A stretch of 8,048 bases of DNA from Planctomycetales bacterium (GTDB taxonomy: Bacteria; Planctomycetota; Phycisphaerae; SM23-33). Position 1 is the first letter of the stretch. Every line of letters begins with the position of its first letter. Below the pieces are notes generated by a model, which was not told where the DNA came from, did not search any database, and was given only the letters and a program-made list of their open reading frames with translations. This document shows positions 3,957 to 8,048 of the stretch, piece after piece. The position numbers were made by a program, and so were the translations under genes. The stretch lies in the NCBI GenBank assembly GCA_030631125.1, contig DAOVLS010000093.1, positions 1 through 8,048 of the forward strand, read 5' to 3'.

Positions 3957-5153
3957 TCAGCCGAGGCGGGCCTGATGGTATGCCAGGCGTTGCTGCGGCG
4001 TCATTTTTGGGAAGTCCGGCAGCCCGTCGGGTTTGGTCGGCCAGGAGATGTCGGAATTCGCCTGTGTTGCGGTTGAGGCACTGACGGCTGTGGCCCCGGC
4101 GGGCGAGCGCGGGATGCTTATCGTCCTGCCGGAAGAACCGTAACTCGTTATGCCGCTGGTCAGTTGCATGTCTTCTTCCAGAGGCCGGTGCGGCTGGAGG
4201 CCCAGACCGGCGAGGACGCCGTGGTATGCCCTGGTCGCTTCCTCGGGTTCGATCTCTCCGTCGGCGATCCAGCGGAGGAACTGGATGAAGCAAAGTTCGT
4301 CTTCGGCGTCCTTGATTTTCCGGCCGAAAAGGGCGGCCCGTGCGCCGTGCTTTTTTGCCTCGGCCAGGAGTTTGAAAGCGTCGTAAGTCGTCCCTGCCGA
4401 GCCGCCGAGGATTCCCGGCACCAGGTGCGGGTCGTATTTGACCAGTTCTTCCATAGCGGCCGGTCCGAGGTACGGCATTTTCAGGAACAAGGGTCTGGCT
4501 GACGACGGTACGCCGGCGAGTGCGCGGGTGATCATATCGTTCAGAAAACTGCCAAGTTGCTCGGTCGGAATGGGGTTGACCATCGCATTGGGAGCGAAAA
4601 CCTCAAGGAAATGGCGAAAACCCCTCTGTTCCGCCTCGATACGAAAGGCCTTGTACGCTTCGAGCATTTCGCGGTCGAGGTTGACGTCGTTGTTGAATGT
4701 CATACTGAACAGACCCAGGTTCGCGCCGAGGTGCCGGTCGGCGATGTCGCAGCCGACCTGTCCGCACTGTGCGTGGTCCAGCAAGGCCGTGCTGAAGGGT
4801 CTGGCCGGGACCTGCGGATAGGACGCTCCGCGGGCGACGTGGATGTCGGTGGTGTCGTTGGCGCGGATGGCGGGCGTTACGGACGAGCCGTCGAAGATAC
4901 GCTCGCGGATCGTGAGTATCTCGTTGGACGAGATCGACATTAGCATAATGTCGAGCAGTCCCTGTCGGACGTTTTGGCGGATGTGTTCGCGGTAATCGGC
5001 CAGCGAGCGAAACTCCCCGTCGGCGTGCTCGGGGCTTTTGCCGGGCGTGGCGATACCGAATGCCATGTCCGCGTCCTTGGCGTCGGCGAGAATAAAAGCG
5101 TTGGAATTCGGGTCCGAATGAATCTCCGCGAGTTTTTTATCCAATGATTTCAT
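3957..5153 (-). CDS. TIM-barrel class I aldolase-like protein (DeoC/LacD superfamily), C-terminal tail
   Basis: A 398-aa protein that I recognise only at superfamily level. Residues about 1-320 read as a beta/alpha barrel: AFILADAKDADMAFG at 19-33, HFLEVF at 181-186, PLFLKMPY at 221-228, GILGGSAGTTYDAF at 247-260 and AALFGRKI at 273-280. K225 sits on a strand where DeoC/LacD/FbaB aldolases carry the Schiff-base lysine. The GG at 250-251 and GR at 277-278 resemble their phosphate-binding loops. Residues about 345-378 are a Ser/Thr/Ala/Pro-rich linker, followed by a short helix (MTPQQRLAYHQARL) ending the protein, a layout like that of microcompartment cargo. The gene follows the microcompartment aldolase on the same strand after 144 bp filled by repeats. 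ATG 5153 has only a weak GGA upstream. It may be a sugar-phosphate aldolase; the true reaction is unknown. Confidence 0.75.
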   Translation of the reverse strand: MKSLDKKLAEIHSDPNSNAFILADAKDADMAFGIATPGKSPEHADGEFRSLADYREHIRQNVRQGLLDIMLMSISSNEILTIRERIFDGSSVTPAIRANDTTDIHVARGASYPQVPARPFSTALLDHAQCGQVGCDIADRHLGANLGLFSMTFNNDVNLDREMLEAYKAFRIEAEQRGFRHFLEVFAPNAMVNPIPTEQLGSFLNDMITRALAGVPSSARPLFLKMPYLGPAAMEELVKYDPHLVPGILGGSAGTTYDAFKLLAEAKKHGARAALFGRKIKDAEDELCFIQFLRWIADGEIEPEEATRAYHGVLAGLGLQPHRPLEEDMQLTSGITSYGSSGRTISIPRSPAGATAVSASTATQANSDISWPTKPDGLPDFPKMTPQQRLAYHQARLG

Positions 5154-5276: not shown

Positions 5277-5302
5277 CATTATTCATGGCACCCATCATTA
5301 TT
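5265..5302. repeat. 19-bp perfect tandem duplication at the aldolase 3' end
   Basis: CATGGCACCCATCATTATT occurs twice back to back (5265-5283 and 5284-5302). The first copy includes the right terminal repeat of the 83-bp element. The second copy contains the stop codon (5298-5300) of the class II aldolase and part of the codon before it. This suggests slippage or an insertion footprint at the end of the gene. Confidence 0.9.
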
Positions 5303-6314
5303 GTTGATACGGTCCACCGGATGCCTGAACGAGTTTGTCGGTTATTACCTGTACGAGTCGTTCGATTTCGTCTTCCGTAGCCCGTTTGCGTACGGTTTCG
5401 GAACTTGAGCCCAGGCCTTCGGCGCCGGGTATATTCCGCCCGGCGACCGTAGCGGGGAAAGCCCCGGGCGATGTCGGCGTCGGCTGGGGCTGACCGGCCT
5501 GCGACGGCGTTCCGGCGATGCCGTTACCGTGGCCGTGACCTTCGGCGTCGGGCGTGTGCTGCGGGATGGCGATCGTCGAGAAGCCGCGCAGAAATTCGTC
5601 GCTGCCGGCGAGGACGCACGCCTCCGGATTACTTTCATGCGTTCGCAGACACTCAAGCCGGGGATCGGAAATGCCCATCCCCTCCTTTATGTCGAGCAAC
5701 TCACGCACCTTGGTTTCGGGCAGCGGGCGAATATTGCCGATCTGTTTGGACAGCAGCAGGATATTGCAGTACATATCCAGCGTTTCGATGTGGAAATATG
5801 CCTGCTGGAGGTCCTTGTCGCAGGTAACCACTCCGTGATTGGCGAGGATGATCGTGTTTGCGTTGTTTTTCAGGTGCGGCAGGATGGTCTCGGCCAGGTT
5901 TTTACTGCCGGGGGTGTCGTATGCGGCTATCGGCACCTGTCCGATGAATATTTCCACTTCCGGCAGGATGCCCGATGGCAGGTCCACGCCGGCGACTGCA
6001 AAGGCAGTCGCGTTGGGTGGATGGGCGTGGCAGACGGCGTTTATCTCCGGCATCTCGTGATATATTTCCAGGTGCAGCAGTATCTCGGAGGTTCTAGGCT
6101 TCGCCCCTTCCAGTTGTTTTCCCTTATCGTCCACCACGGCGATATCGGCGGGTTTCAGGAATCCTTTGGACACGCCGGTCGGCGTGCAGAGGAATCGCCC
6201 GTCGCCGAGGCGGAAGGATATGTTGCCGTCATTGGCGGCCACGAAGCCGTGATCGTACATTCGCCGCCCTATGTCGCATATCTGCTGCTTGATTTGCCAT
6301 TCATTGACCATCAT
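5298..6314 (-). CDS. Class II (FucA-type) sugar-phosphate aldolase with C-terminal encapsulation helix
   Basis: This is a predicted zinc aldolase of the microcompartment core, splitting fuculose- or rhamnulose-1-phosphate to lactaldehyde and DHAP. Residues 1-215 are the AraD/FucA domain: AANDGNISFR at 26-35, TPTGVSKG at 44-51, catalytic E77 in RTSEILLH, zinc ligands H96 and H98 in HAHPPN, and H160 in ANHGVVT. FucA itself is about 215 aa, so the 338-aa product carries a large extension. Residues 251-311 are a Pro/Gly/Thr-rich linker with a GHGHGNG stretch, and 313-331 form an amphipathic helix of the encapsulation-peptide type. The start overlaps the upstream BMC-P stop (ATGA). GGGGGA upstream fits either of two adjacent ATGs (6314, 6311). 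The stop codon lies in a 19-bp repeat. Class is firm; the exact sugar phosphate is inferred. Confidence 0.92.
   Translation of the reverse strand: MMVNEWQIKQQICDIGRRMYDHGFVAANDGNISFRLGDGRFLCTPTGVSKGFLKPADIAVVDDKGKQLEGAKPRTSEILLHLEIYHEMPEINAVCHAHPPNATAFAVAGVDLPSGILPEVEIFIGQVPIAAYDTPGSKNLAETILPHLKNNANTIILANHGVVTCDKDLQQAYFHIETLDMYCNILLLSKQIGNIRPLPETKVRELLDIKEGMGISDPRLECLRTHESNPEACVLAGSDEFLRGFSTIAIPQHTPDAEGHGHGNGIAGTPSQAGQPQPTPTSPGAFPATVAGRNIPGAEGLGSSSETVRKRATEDEIERLVQVITDKLVQASGGPYQQ
5322..5378 (-). other. Predicted C-terminal encapsulation peptide of the class II aldolase
   Basis: Residues 313-331 of the aldolase (TEDEIERLVQVITDKLVQA) alternate charged and hydrophobic positions, with I317, L320/V321, I324 and L328 on one face. 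The segment follows a long flexible linker. This is the standard layout of peptides that recruit enzymes to BMC shells. No binding data are implied. Confidence 0.75.
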
Positions 6315-6616
6315 TTATCCCCCATCCTGATAACGGGTCGAAAGTTGACGGTGTCCAGTATGCAGGCGTTATAGGCGTCGTATGGTACTTTCGTAGGCCA
6401 GAACGGAGCGGTGGCTTCGCGTCCCTCGACCAGGCCGACCATATCGCCGACGCCCGCGCCCAGGCGGTCGTACATAACGACCGTCTCGTCGTTGCCTTCG
6501 TTAGCGCCGGTGAGCGTGCCGCGATTGCAGGTCCGGACAATCAGGAAACTGCCCGGTACGACCTCGCTCATCGACAGGTTCATCGTTACTTTGCCTATGA
6601 CCTTCGCTATTCGCAT
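6311..6616 (-). CDS. BMC-P shell pentamer protein (EutN/CcmL family)
   Basis: This 101-aa vertex protein is expected to form pentamers that cap the corners of the microcompartment shell. The family signature is strong: MRIAKVIGKV at the start, VPGSFLIVR at 20-28, NDETVVMYDRLGAGVGDMVG at 42-61, LVEGREA at 62-68 and ACILDTV at 84-90. It is of the ordinary single-domain length. ATG 6616 follows directly on the TAG of the upstream gene (TAGATG), and a very strong ribosome site (GGAGGAGAGG, 6623-6632) is embedded in that gene's last codons. Its own stop overlaps the aldolase start. The strong site suggests plentiful translation within the operon. Confidence 0.95.
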   Translation of the reverse strand: MRIAKVIGKVTMNLSMSEVVPGSFLIVRTCNRGTLTGANEGNDETVVMYDRLGAGVGDMVGLVEGREATAPFWPTKVPYDAYNACILDTVNFRPVIRMGDK

Positions 6617-7480
6617 CTACGACCTCTCCTCCCTGCCGACTGCTTCCAGAAGAACGCCGGAAGAAACCTTGTTGGCGCGATTATTCGTGAAAGCGCGGAT
6701 CATCGTGCACATCTCGTGGAACGTTGAGAAGGCGTGTTCGAGTATCAGGACGTTCGCGCCGAAGTGGCGAAGCCCGGCCTTGACGCTTTCGAGACGCGTG
6801 CCTTGCACGGCGCGGATGCCGGTGATCTTATTGGCCAGCACCATCGCATCGGCTGCGTATGGCATGATCGCAACACCGGCGACAAGCCCGTCCGAAGCGA
6901 CATCCCGGCACATCGACCGGAGGTTCTCCATCCAGCAGGACGACCGGTCGAACCGCGAAAAACCAATTCCGTTGTTTGAAAGCGAATCGGTAACGCTTCG
7001 GACCTTCTCATCGGATCTGTCGATAACAAGACCGATTGTGGTCGTCGGCGTCGAATCCGGGTTTGTATCCGTCGGAGTGGAGCGAGGTGTTCCGGTTTCG
7101 TCATGCCTCGCTGAAGCGAGCACGCCGGACGTGTGGTATTCCGGTATTCCGATATTCCGTTCTATTTTAGAGATTGTAAGGTTTTTCTGCTCTGCAAAGT
7201 CAGTGGCGGCGGGCGTGAGGAATTCGTTGTGCGACAACTCGATTACACTACCGTTTATACCGGATAATCGTTGTCGTAAGTCATCGACGGTGATAAAGAC
7301 CCTCGTAACCGGACGGGTTCCCAAAGCCGACGGATAGCTATCCGTCGGTTTGCGTTCCGCCGGTTCCTGTGTCTTCGGAAGCGGGGTTTCCAGTTGCGAT
7401 GCTGCAATCCCTTGCCGCCCAAGGGCTTCTATCACCTGTTCGGTAATCTTATTGACCAGTTCGGCGTCCACTCGTTTCAT
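6617..7480 (-). CDS. Microcompartment-associated protein: encapsulation-like helix plus degenerate RpiB-like domain
   Basis: This 287-aa protein has three parts. Residues 4-20 form an amphipathic helix (VDAELVNKITEQVIEAL) like an encapsulation peptide, followed by a Pro-rich linker to about 56. Residues 59-107 contain FITVDDL...FLTPAATDFAEQKNLTI, resembling the N-terminal segment of EutT-type proteins. After a Thr/Pro-rich linker (125-147), residues 148-285 align with ribose-5-phosphate isomerase B: AGVAI, ANKITGIRAV at 216-225, GANVLIL at 241-247. Where RpiB has its catalytic ICGTG loop this protein reads IMPYA (205-209), so the cysteine is a methionine and the glycine-rich loop is lost. RpiB activity is therefore doubtful. 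ATG 7480 overlaps the BMC-P stop (ATGA). A longer frame to 7513 adds non-conserved residues. It is likely a cargo, scaffold or ligand-binding protein; the exact role is unknown. Confidence 0.75.
   Translation of the reverse strand: MKRVDAELVNKITEQVIEALGRQGIAASQLETPLPKTQEPAERKPTDSYPSALGTRPVTRVFITVDDLRQRLSGINGSVIELSHNEFLTPAATDFAEQKNLTISKIERNIGIPEYHTSGVLASARHDETGTPRSTPTDTNPDSTPTTTIGLVIDRSDEKVRSVTDSLSNNGIGFSRFDRSSCWMENLRSMCRDVASDGLVAGVAIMPYAADAMVLANKITGIRAVQGTRLESVKAGLRHFGANVLILEHAFSTFHEMCTMIRAFTNNRANKVSSGVLLEAVGREERS
6623..6632 (-). promoter_or_regulatory. Very strong ribosome binding site for the second BMC-P
   Basis: GGAGGAGAGG on the minus strand, ending 6 nt before ATG 6616, lies within the last codons of the RpiB-like gene. 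It is by far the best ribosome site in the operon and contrasts with the absent one before the first BMC-P gene. Confidence 0.75.
7421..7471 (-). other. Predicted N-terminal encapsulation peptide of the RpiB-like protein
   Basis: Residues 4-20 of the RpiB-like protein place hydrophobic side chains at V4, L8, I12, V16 (with I17) and L20, with charged or polar residues between them. A Pro-rich linker follows. The i/i+4 pattern and terminal position match known encapsulation peptides and resemble the aldolase's C-terminal helix in character rather than exact sequence. Confidence 0.7.
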
Positions 7481-7740
7481 TCCTGATGATCGAGAATTCC
7501 TATAACGGCCCATCGGACGGGCGAGTTGGTGTTGCCGACCATCTCTCGCGCACCCTTACCGTCGTTGCTGATAAGCACCTTGCTGCCATGGCCTGCGCCC
7601 AGCATGTCGATAGCCAGAAGCGGATCGCCGTCCGGCTTGCCGACCAGATCAATCGGCTGGACCACCAGCAGCCGCCATCCCCGCATCGAGGGATGCTTTA
7701 TTGTCGAAACCGCATTACCTTCTACCACTGCTATGAACAT
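7477..7740 (-). CDS. BMC-P shell pentamer protein (EutN/CcmL family), first copy
   Basis: This 87-aa shell vertex protein has the EutN/CcmL pattern: MFIAVVEGNAVSTIKHPSM at the start, LLVVQPID at 24-31, LLAIDMLGAGHGSKVLISND at 41-60 and NSPVRWAVIGILD at 72-84. It differs clearly from the second BMC-P (6311-6616), so the two are separate paralogues that may occupy different vertices. ATG 7740 is chosen because it gives the family's canonical start; a GTG at 7794 would add repeat-encoded residues. There is no Shine-Dalgarno site: the upstream sequence is CCACGAAAAA, immediately preceded by a palindromic repeat. Its TGA overlaps the next gene's ATG. Confidence 0.92.
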   Translation of the reverse strand: MFIAVVEGNAVSTIKHPSMRGWRLLVVQPIDLVGKPDGDPLLAIDMLGAGHGSKVLISNDGKGAREMVGNTNSPVRWAVIGILDHQE

Positions 7741-7749
7741 TTTTTCGTG

Positions 7750-7811
7750 GCACAGGTTTTCAACCTGTGCATCCCGCACTTGGTGGAGCAGCACAGGTTG
7801 AAAACCTGTGC
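7750..7811. repeat. Two inverted 21-bp palindromes (REP-like pair)
   Basis: GCACAGGTT-TTC-AACCTGTGC (7750-7770) and its exact reverse complement GCACAGGTT-GAA-AACCTGTGC (7791-7811) flank a 20-bp spacer. Each is a 9-bp stem with a 3-nt loop, and the two copies can also pair with each other. The pair fills nearly all of the 79-bp gap between the aldehyde dehydrogenase and the first BMC-P gene. It resembles bacterial REP/BIME elements. Confidence 0.85.
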
Positions 7812-7819
7812 TACCAACA

Positions 7820-8048
7820 TTAAATAATCCTCAAATTATCGACCATTGTGCATCGTCGCAGGCGGGTGAAGGTCATCGGCGTTACGACGCCTTCGCCGGT
7901 GGCGCAGGCGATGGAGAAGTTACCGTAACCTTCTCCGCCCGCACCGTTGCCCGCCGCCGACGGGCCGTTCTTTACATAGAGCGTCGTGTCCATCGCCTTG
8001 CCCATGTAGGTCATGTTGCCCACCAACTTCGAGTGTATAATCGCGGTA
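7820..8048 (-). CDS. CoA-acylating aldehyde dehydrogenase (PduP/EutE family), C-terminal end
   Basis: Only the last 76 residues are in the window; the gene runs off the right edge. They match the C-terminus of PduP-type enzymes, which convert an aldehyde, NAD+ and coenzyme A to acyl-CoA and NADH inside microcompartments. Recognisable pieces are [49 protein letters not shown], and the terminal [17 protein letters not shown]. The usual N-terminal encapsulation peptide cannot be checked. With the FucA-type aldolase in the same cluster, lactaldehyde is the likely substrate, giving lactyl-CoA. The stop codon is followed by the palindrome pair before the first BMC-P gene. Family call is firm although the gene is partial. 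Confidence 0.93.

Follow-up and report, generated by a model that had tools for sequence, protein, structure and literature searches.

The 8,048-nucleotide stretch of Planctomycetales DNA analysed here (the window) carries a microcompartment locus of the PVM type, which degrades fucose and rhamnose, and in which a gene between two shell pentamer genes encodes a protein with the fold of ribose-5-phosphate isomerase B (RpiB). On balance, we lean towards the view that this protein is a pseudo-isomerase turned structural shell-cargo adaptor, the PVM relative of the isomerase of SPU loci. Comparison with related loci establishes its kinship, its slot in the locus, the loss of the catalytic motifs, the action of purifying selection, and the homology of an internal module to EutT.

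Gene context and protein architecture

The relevant features of the window are the following.

7820..8047, minus strand: C-terminal end of an aldehyde dehydrogenase (AldDH), cut by the window edge and matched by the AldDH of locus L003
7477..7740, minus strand: shell pentamer gene EutN/CcmL (PF03319, E 8.4e-26), with a 4-nt overlap with the pseudo-isomerase start
6617..7480, minus strand: gene of the RpiB-fold pseudo-isomerase of the PVM microcompartment (287-aa ORF)
7406..7468, minus strand: N-terminal amphipathic helix, encapsulation-peptide-like, residues 5-25 (AlphaFold2 helix 6-25)
7163..7303, minus strand: TPxA module, kin to the N-terminus of EutT and less surely of EutQ, residues 60-106
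6671..7042, minus strand: RpiB-fold domain, residues 147-270 (PF02502, AlphaFold2, profile alignments)
6935..6937, minus strand: Cys182, at the loop of the RpiB DYP motif (C in 76/78 aligned rows)
6854..6868, minus strand: IMPYA loop, where RpiB has ICGTG, residues 205-209
6311..6616, minus strand: second shell pentamer gene EutN/CcmL (PF03319, E 9.4e-15), abutting the pseudo-isomerase stop
5298..6314, minus strand: class II aldolase, the PVM signature enzyme (PF00596, E 1.6e-50)
3957..5153, minus strand: uncharacterised 398-aa protein recurring in PVM loci (locus survey)

A preliminary description of the sequence had placed the gene between two pentamer genes with start-stop overlaps. The slot and the upstream overlap hold, the stop of the upstream pentamer gene sharing ATGA (4 nt) with the start of the pseudo-isomerase, but on the downstream side the stop and the EutN start only abut (TAG-ATG, no overlap). 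The downstream pentamer gene overlaps the aldolase gene by ATGA. A start further upstream, at 7513, would lengthen the pseudo-isomerase to 298 amino acids. Two palindromes, CACAGGTTTTCAACCTGTG and CACAGGTTGAAAACCTGTG, were noticed by eye at 7750-7812, in the gap that separates the AldDH end from the first pentamer gene. The 398-residue protein recurs in 14 of 30 PVM loci; searches with it gave no match in Pfam (E up to 1) or the PDB, and a weak NCBIfam match (E 0.045). Directly downstream of a class II fructose-bisphosphate aldolase gene, a HepT-like gene and a nucleotidyltransferase gene form a pair at 2154-2814 that we take to resemble the HepT/MntA toxin-antitoxin module.

The RpiB ancestry proposed earlier for the C-terminal domain is borne out by PF02502 (LacAB_rpiB), the sole Pfam match of the protein, which covers residues 178-269 (E 6e-8, 33.2 bits against a cut-off of 24.7). 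Among three other PVM members scanned, L074 and L097 fell under this cut-off and L098 gave no match, and a search of PDB sequences with the window protein found no match. An AlphaFold2 model computed from a 44-row alignment (mean pLDDT 81.3, pTM 0.53) comprises a helix (residues 6-25), a folded module (61-105) and a domain with five beta-alpha units (148-266). The pLDDT exceeds 90 in most ten-residue blocks of the module and the domain, and the linkers are of low confidence. RpiB and LacAB proteins are Rossmann-like alpha-beta-alpha sandwiches (PMC3755991).

The amphipathic N-terminal helix of the targeting type that had been described is present in the model, though its amphipathicity alone is modest: the moment ranks second of 270 sequence windows, and 4.6% of 5000 shuffles reach as high a value. 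The layout of an encapsulation peptide is likewise present, as the helix is followed by flexible blocks with pLDDT 47-64. The segment thus looks encapsulation-peptide-like, with a predicted role in targeting. By eye, the N-termini of AldDH (L003, L074) and PduL (L002, L074) look alike.

Occurrence in microcompartment loci

The profile of the family matched 79 of 392 genomes of the phylum, several matches being canonical RpiB, and the pentamer family was matched in 134 of the 392. From 56 of these 134 genomes, 60 pentamer regions were taken, mostly down the E-value list; together with the window and three loci chosen by similarity (L001-L003) they form a survey set of 64 loci, annotated by profile searches. 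The survey covers the phylum of the window. Locus types rest on profile matches, with Pfam run only on the window aldolase, the L003 AldDH, the L047 DeoC and the L087 ACT protein.

Thirty of the 64 loci (26 fetched, the window and L001-L003) are of the PVM type, with a class II aldolase, an AldDH and the slot pentamer - gene - pentamer; PduL and AckA are present in 27 of them. In the window itself the aldolase, the two pentamers and the AldDH end are present in the conserved order, while PduL and AckA lie beyond its edge and are present in the close relative L002. The pseudo-isomerase gene fills the slot in all 30 loci, which agrees with the earlier claim that the protein is an integral part of the locus. 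Another 15 loci are of the SPU type and combine DeoC with an RpiB-type gene in the same kind of pentamer slot. When the window and L001-L003 are dropped along with L094-L100, which were picked with the match in view (six PVM, one DeoC), the remaining counts of the gene in its slot are 20/20 PVM and 14/14 DeoC loci. By the family profile each locus has one RpiB-type ORF, with no partner beside it.

The PVM sequences are very divergent, at 16-76% identity to the first of 28 rows. Conservation across these 28 diverse rows is highest at a single Val in the helix, at T, T, P and D in the module, and at N, R, A and N in the core of the fold. When plasmids were searched for PVM loci using the L003 aldolase, 1344 records came back, all below 60% identity.

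A further 12 loci (L043, L054, L060, L065, L081-L084, L086, L088, L089 and L092) have a class II aldolase, Pfam-run on L043 only, and three nearby pentamer genes, and no RpiB-like gene was found in them. The remaining survey loci are three in no assigned type and four with ACT-type proteins carrying a similar module. The latter, a different planctomycete microcompartment locus type, encode proteins with an N-terminal TPxA-like module and an ACT domain (L085 8156-8653, L087 11118-11615, L090 10512-11021, L093 8085-8741), the domain being assigned by Pfam in L087 and by similar sequence in L085, L090 and L093. In L085, L087 and L093 a 97-aa protein with a similar module is encoded beside the ACT-type gene.

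Loss of the isomerase pocket

The replacement of ICGTG by IMPYA at residues 205-209 (Met206, codon 6865-6863) stands as first described. A database search with the window protein gave 78 proteins, its own counted; the alignment also has 78 rows, namely the window protein, 76 of its 77 relatives (the short P0009 was dropped) and P0114. Positions 206-209 occur in 18 variants in these rows, LPYA (43) and MPYA (7) being the commonest and none CGTG-like, and the dismantled loop, sought in other microcompartment loci as well, is common to all 30 PVM loci examined. A local mutation or sequencing error was rejected on these grounds.

The idea that the cysteine is the sole loss was also rejected, as none of the 30 PVM loci keeps any full RpiB motif (DHxG, DYP, Gly loop or phosphate-Arg). 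At the DHxG position the window sequence reads VIDRSDEK; the His of this motif is found in 0/30 and the Asp in 5/30 PVM loci, and the Asp of DYP is kept in two. In the catalytic loop the first Gly survives in 3/30 loci, the second in none, and the Cys column holds C in one, the pairing of columns being uncertain in the most divergent rows. The GGRHxxR region is absent from the window protein, the first phosphate Arg from all 30 loci and the second from all except one. Retained are the Asn of ANK/R and the K or R that follows it (30/30 each), the Ala (29/30) and the Asn of ANV (28/30). Compared with canonical RpiB/LacAB (PF02502, e.g. 3he8), the protein thus shares the fold family and the ANK/R...RA...ANV core, but is without full DHxG, DYP, CGTG and GGRHxxR and has an extra helix and module. 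D8, H9 and C65 are indispensable to LacB (PMC3755991), and modelling of Leishmania RpiB assigns the phosphate to R137/R141 (PMC4783025). Loss of the isomerase pocket in the window protein is, on the evidence of the alignments, well supported.

Homologues that keep the catalytic Cys and the Gly-rich loop, which would have made the loss a local event, were found in part. The Gly loop is kept in DeoC loci, but with Asp for Cys; among PVM loci, the Cys column is occupied by Cys in L041, and L044 and L049 carry one a column earlier, followed by GG, yet the other motifs are gone in all three, which form one group in the domain tree. The L001-L003 genomes each have a separate canonical RpiB (E about 1e-55).

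Relationship to the RpiB proteins of DeoC loci

The RpiB proteins of the 15 SPU loci (L042, L046-L048, L051, L055-L057, L061, L064, L068, L070, L073, L091 and L100) are nearly intact. In all 15 the DHGG motif retains its D, H and G and the DYP motif its D and Y, and the two loop Gly, the His-Asn pair and the two Arg are also in place. Asp stands where the catalytic Cys would be in every one of them, and Ala (13), Val (one) or Met (one) has replaced the loop Thr/Ser. The same Asp occupies the Cys site in 116 of 120 listed relatives of the L047 protein (P0128-P0247, part of 7999 scored), with three unparsed and one parsed wrongly. The module is present in all 15 SPU proteins, as TPxA in 14 and TTLA in L048, and a helix-like N-terminus was seen by eye in 12 (not L051, L055 or L091). 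The two forms therefore have in common the TPxA module, the RpiB fold, the slot between pentamer genes and mostly the helix; they differ in the pocket, kept in SPU apart from the Cys and Thr/Ser substitutions and lost in PVM, and in the locus enzyme, DeoC in the one and a class II aldolase in the other.

The preliminary description had the window protein lose its Cys and gain an encapsulation peptide on its own account. This does not agree with the SPU proteins, where the module, the Asp for Cys and, in most, the helix are already found. Because nearly intact RpiBs in the same slot carry the module and mostly the helix, these parts were hardly gained in the window protein.

The PVM and SPU versions align over nearly their full length, helix and module included (hhalign 99.3%, E 1.7e-20, 219 columns). 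Alignment with canonical RpiB is confined to the domain (96.8% over 89 columns and 97.9% over 129). A quick maximum-likelihood tree was computed on the domain, its 45 PVM rows representing the 30 loci and 15 window-clade proteins of unchecked context. The PVM rows fall on one side of a branch with SH-aLRT 99 and the SPU rows on one side of another with 92; the length of the PVM branch, 2.9, calls for caution in reading the tree. It does not make SPU the nearest kin, because the fork that joins SPU, PVM and two canonical rows is unresolved. The main evidence for the kinship that we propose is the shared module and gene slot, and the simplest history would be that the isomerase site was lost once, in the common ancestor of the PVM proteins.

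The TPxA module, EutT and EutQ

The resemblance of the middle segment to the start of EutT, noted from the sequence at the outset, was confirmed by profile search. With the window-clade module profile, Escherichia coli EutT scored 24.7 bits, where the best other ORF reached 9.1 and the top score among 2000 shuffles was 8.5. The EutT scores across three module profiles range over 24.7-37.4 bits. By these scores the homology of the module to the EutT N-terminus is clear. Automatic cutting gave 216 module segments, at least one of which (P0016) was mis-cut. In EutT the module is followed by a cobalamin adenosyltransferase domain, which distinguishes the two proteins. Against solved structures the module gave nothing above chance (best 13.3 bits, E 0.46).

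For EutQ, the other relative that had been considered, the searches were divided. E. coli EutQ was matched by the SPU module profile (18.7 bits, E 4.4e-4; best shuffle 12.3) and by the mixed profile A4 (15.7 bits, E 0.0037; best shuffle 11.0), but with the window-clade profile it reached 3.9 bits, under the best shuffle of 8.5. The matched segment is E. coli residues 2-47, a position carried over to Salmonella EutQ. Homology of the module to the shell-binding part of EutQ is thus moderately supported by the profile scores.

In Salmonella, EutQ without residues 9-41 stays with the cargo while the shell parts from it, and EutQ without residues 62-99 stays with the shell (PMC12487888). Residues 9-41 are the shell-binding part; the C-terminal domain forms dimers and is dispensable for assembly (PMC12487888). 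Growth on ethanolamine does require this domain, for which acetate kinase activity has been reported (PMC12487888). The moderately matched TPxA-type N-terminus and the presence of a C-terminal domain, which in EutQ dimerises, are points of likeness to EutQ, which differs in having a cupin instead of the RpiB fold, in its reported kinase activity, and in its cargo-binding helices H3/H4, of which no counterpart was seen in the pseudo-isomerase.

A proposed structural adaptor

Among four close loci (the window and L001-L003), dN/dS amounts to 0.08-0.20 for the module and 0.16-0.21 for the RpiB domain; the helix gives 0.09-0.63 and the linkers give 0.70-1.32. The module and the domain are under purifying selection, and the domain is not decaying. 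Relic status without function is hardly conceivable: the great divergence of the PVM sequences is what such decay might leave, but the gene is present with an open reading frame in 30/30 PVM loci examined, and dN/dS of about 0.2 or less in module and domain speaks against it.

We propose that the PVM form has lost isomerase chemistry and has been retained as a structural adaptor. The N-terminal helix would join the cargo core, alongside the similar-looking helices of AldDH and PduL; the TPxA module would dock on the inner face of the shell, as the corresponding EutQ segment does; and the RpiB-fold domain, as a dimeric or tetrameric hub, would make the contacts multivalent. The adaptor reading is suggested by homology, because the module shows a moderate match to the EutQ segment whose deletion parts shell from cargo, and it is from these Salmonella deletions that shell binding by the module is inferred. 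Cargo binding, oligomerisation and absence of activity are likewise presumed for the PVM protein. In favour of the adaptor count the same BMC-P - gene - BMC-P slot in 30 PVM and 15 DeoC loci, the nearly full-length PVM-SPU alignment, the motif loss, the separate genomic RpiB, the selection, the best-kept residues, the similar AldDH and PduL N-termini, the EutQ shell segment, and the precedent of inactive domains as scaffolds. The preliminary description had offered a pseudo-enzyme or scaffold among its ideas, and this is the one that motif loss in 30/30 PVM loci, selection and module homology place in the lead.

CcmM provides a carboxysome parallel for an enzyme fold kept as a scaffold. Inactive enzyme domains of microcompartments have been proposed as scaffolds, among them carboxysome domains and the second AldDH of GRM1 loci; the enzyme fold is kept there and catalysis lost, as here, but the folds are unrelated and the locus types are others (PMC4207490).

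Several observations weigh against the adaptor. The match to EutQ is of moderate strength and is lost when the window-clade profile is used, and no H3/H4 counterpart was seen. EutT, the best match of the module, is an enzyme, and shell binding by its N-terminus is not stated in the parts of the literature covered. The domain tree does not resolve SPU as nearest kin. Finally, the window clade has many conserved polar residues near the old active site, beyond the needs of a plain hub. The EutQ parallel alone is also no argument for lost activity, since the C-terminal domain of EutQ is itself a reported enzyme.

Alternative readings

The polar residues give the main rival, because the window clade keeps a new, near-invariant set, C182, Q226, R238, E248 and H255. 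In 55 window-clade rows below 75% identity (mean pairwise 45%), C182, K218, Q226 and N243 never vary, and R238, E248 and H255 are each conserved at 98%. In the AlphaFold2 model, C182 just precedes the helix that follows beta2. Q226 and E248 close strands beta4 and beta5, D211 opens the helix behind beta3 and H255 the one behind beta5; all five are at or adjoin the C-terminal ends of strands 2 to 5. R238 adjoins the position of the RpiB ring-opening His, which in LacAB serves the site of the partner (PMC3755991). The clade could have rebuilt the old active-site region into a new ligand-binding or catalytic site made of C182, W183, D211, Q226, R238, E248, H255 and E256, with K218 and N243 as older members; a lactaldehyde-pathway metabolite or a sugar phosphate might be its ligand. 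Near-invariance, placement and strong purifying selection all favour such a site. K218 and N243, however, are also kept in canonical RpiB and are therefore inherited, C182 is C in 76/78 of all rows, and in the alignments the new set is not common to other PVM lineages with the same slot. Interfaces can be equally conserved, and there is no obvious missing reaction for such a site to fill. We regard a rebuilt site as possible but rather doubtful. Its fuller version, a re-armed isomerase of the planctomycete window clade whose Cys/Gln/Arg/Glu/His set catalyses some new reaction or detects a metabolite within the fucose/rhamnose organelle while the protein also tethers cargo to the shell, we consider unlikely.

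The protein might instead be a non-catalytic subunit that completes the site of another RpiB-family isomerase, as LacA does for LacB. LacAB has one site per pair, LacB giving Cys65 and LacA His96 and Asn97 (PMC3755991), and this precedent of a shared site lends the idea some appeal, as do H239, which sits at the LacA His and is present in 61/78 rows, and the canonical RpiB encoded elsewhere in the three close genomes. Yet Phe240 takes the place of the Asn in the window protein, this position is hydrophobic in 30/30 PVM loci, the His is kept in 4/30, and the single RpiB-type ORF that the family profile finds per locus has no adjoining partner, which makes such a role highly improbable.

Nor does a sugar-phosphate isomerase working with another base, as Mycobacterium tuberculosis RpiB does with Glu75, fit the motifs well. 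RpiB bases can move (PMC4783025, PMC3755991), and the DeoC-locus relatives already have Asp for Cys. With the His of DHxG, the second loop Gly and the first phosphate Arg gone in 30/30 PVM loci, however, and with L007, a canonical-type RpiB that is without Cys, keeping DHxG, a Gly loop and both Arg, retained isomerase activity of this kind appears very remote.

Implications for PVM organelles

PVM organelles are widespread, with 285 representatives in the 2021 catalogue (PMC8217296). Catalogues place RpiB in SPU loci and credit PVM loci with an aldolase, an acetate kinase and a lactate/malate dehydrogenase; in the parts covered, neither names an RpiB-like protein in PVM loci (PMC4207490, PMC8217296). 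A search for such a protein in the literature gave none among the titles and abstracts listed, and an earlier description is possible. How cargo is attached to the shell in PVM organelles is not stated in the parts of the literature covered. Where relatives of the window protein are named in databases, they appear as hypothetical protein, ribose 5-phosphate isomerase RpiB/B, or RpiB/LacA/LacB family sugar-phosphate isomerase; the PVM proteins should not be annotated as ribose-5-phosphate isomerase.

An inactive-looking enzyme domain in a microcompartment is of a known kind; this one derives from RpiB and occurs in every PVM locus examined, its present role being deduced. The pseudo-isomerase links two organelle types, SPU and PVM. 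As a former enzyme in a fixed PVM slot, whose module has kin in EutT and, with less certainty, in EutQ, it is a candidate for the linker between shell and cargo.
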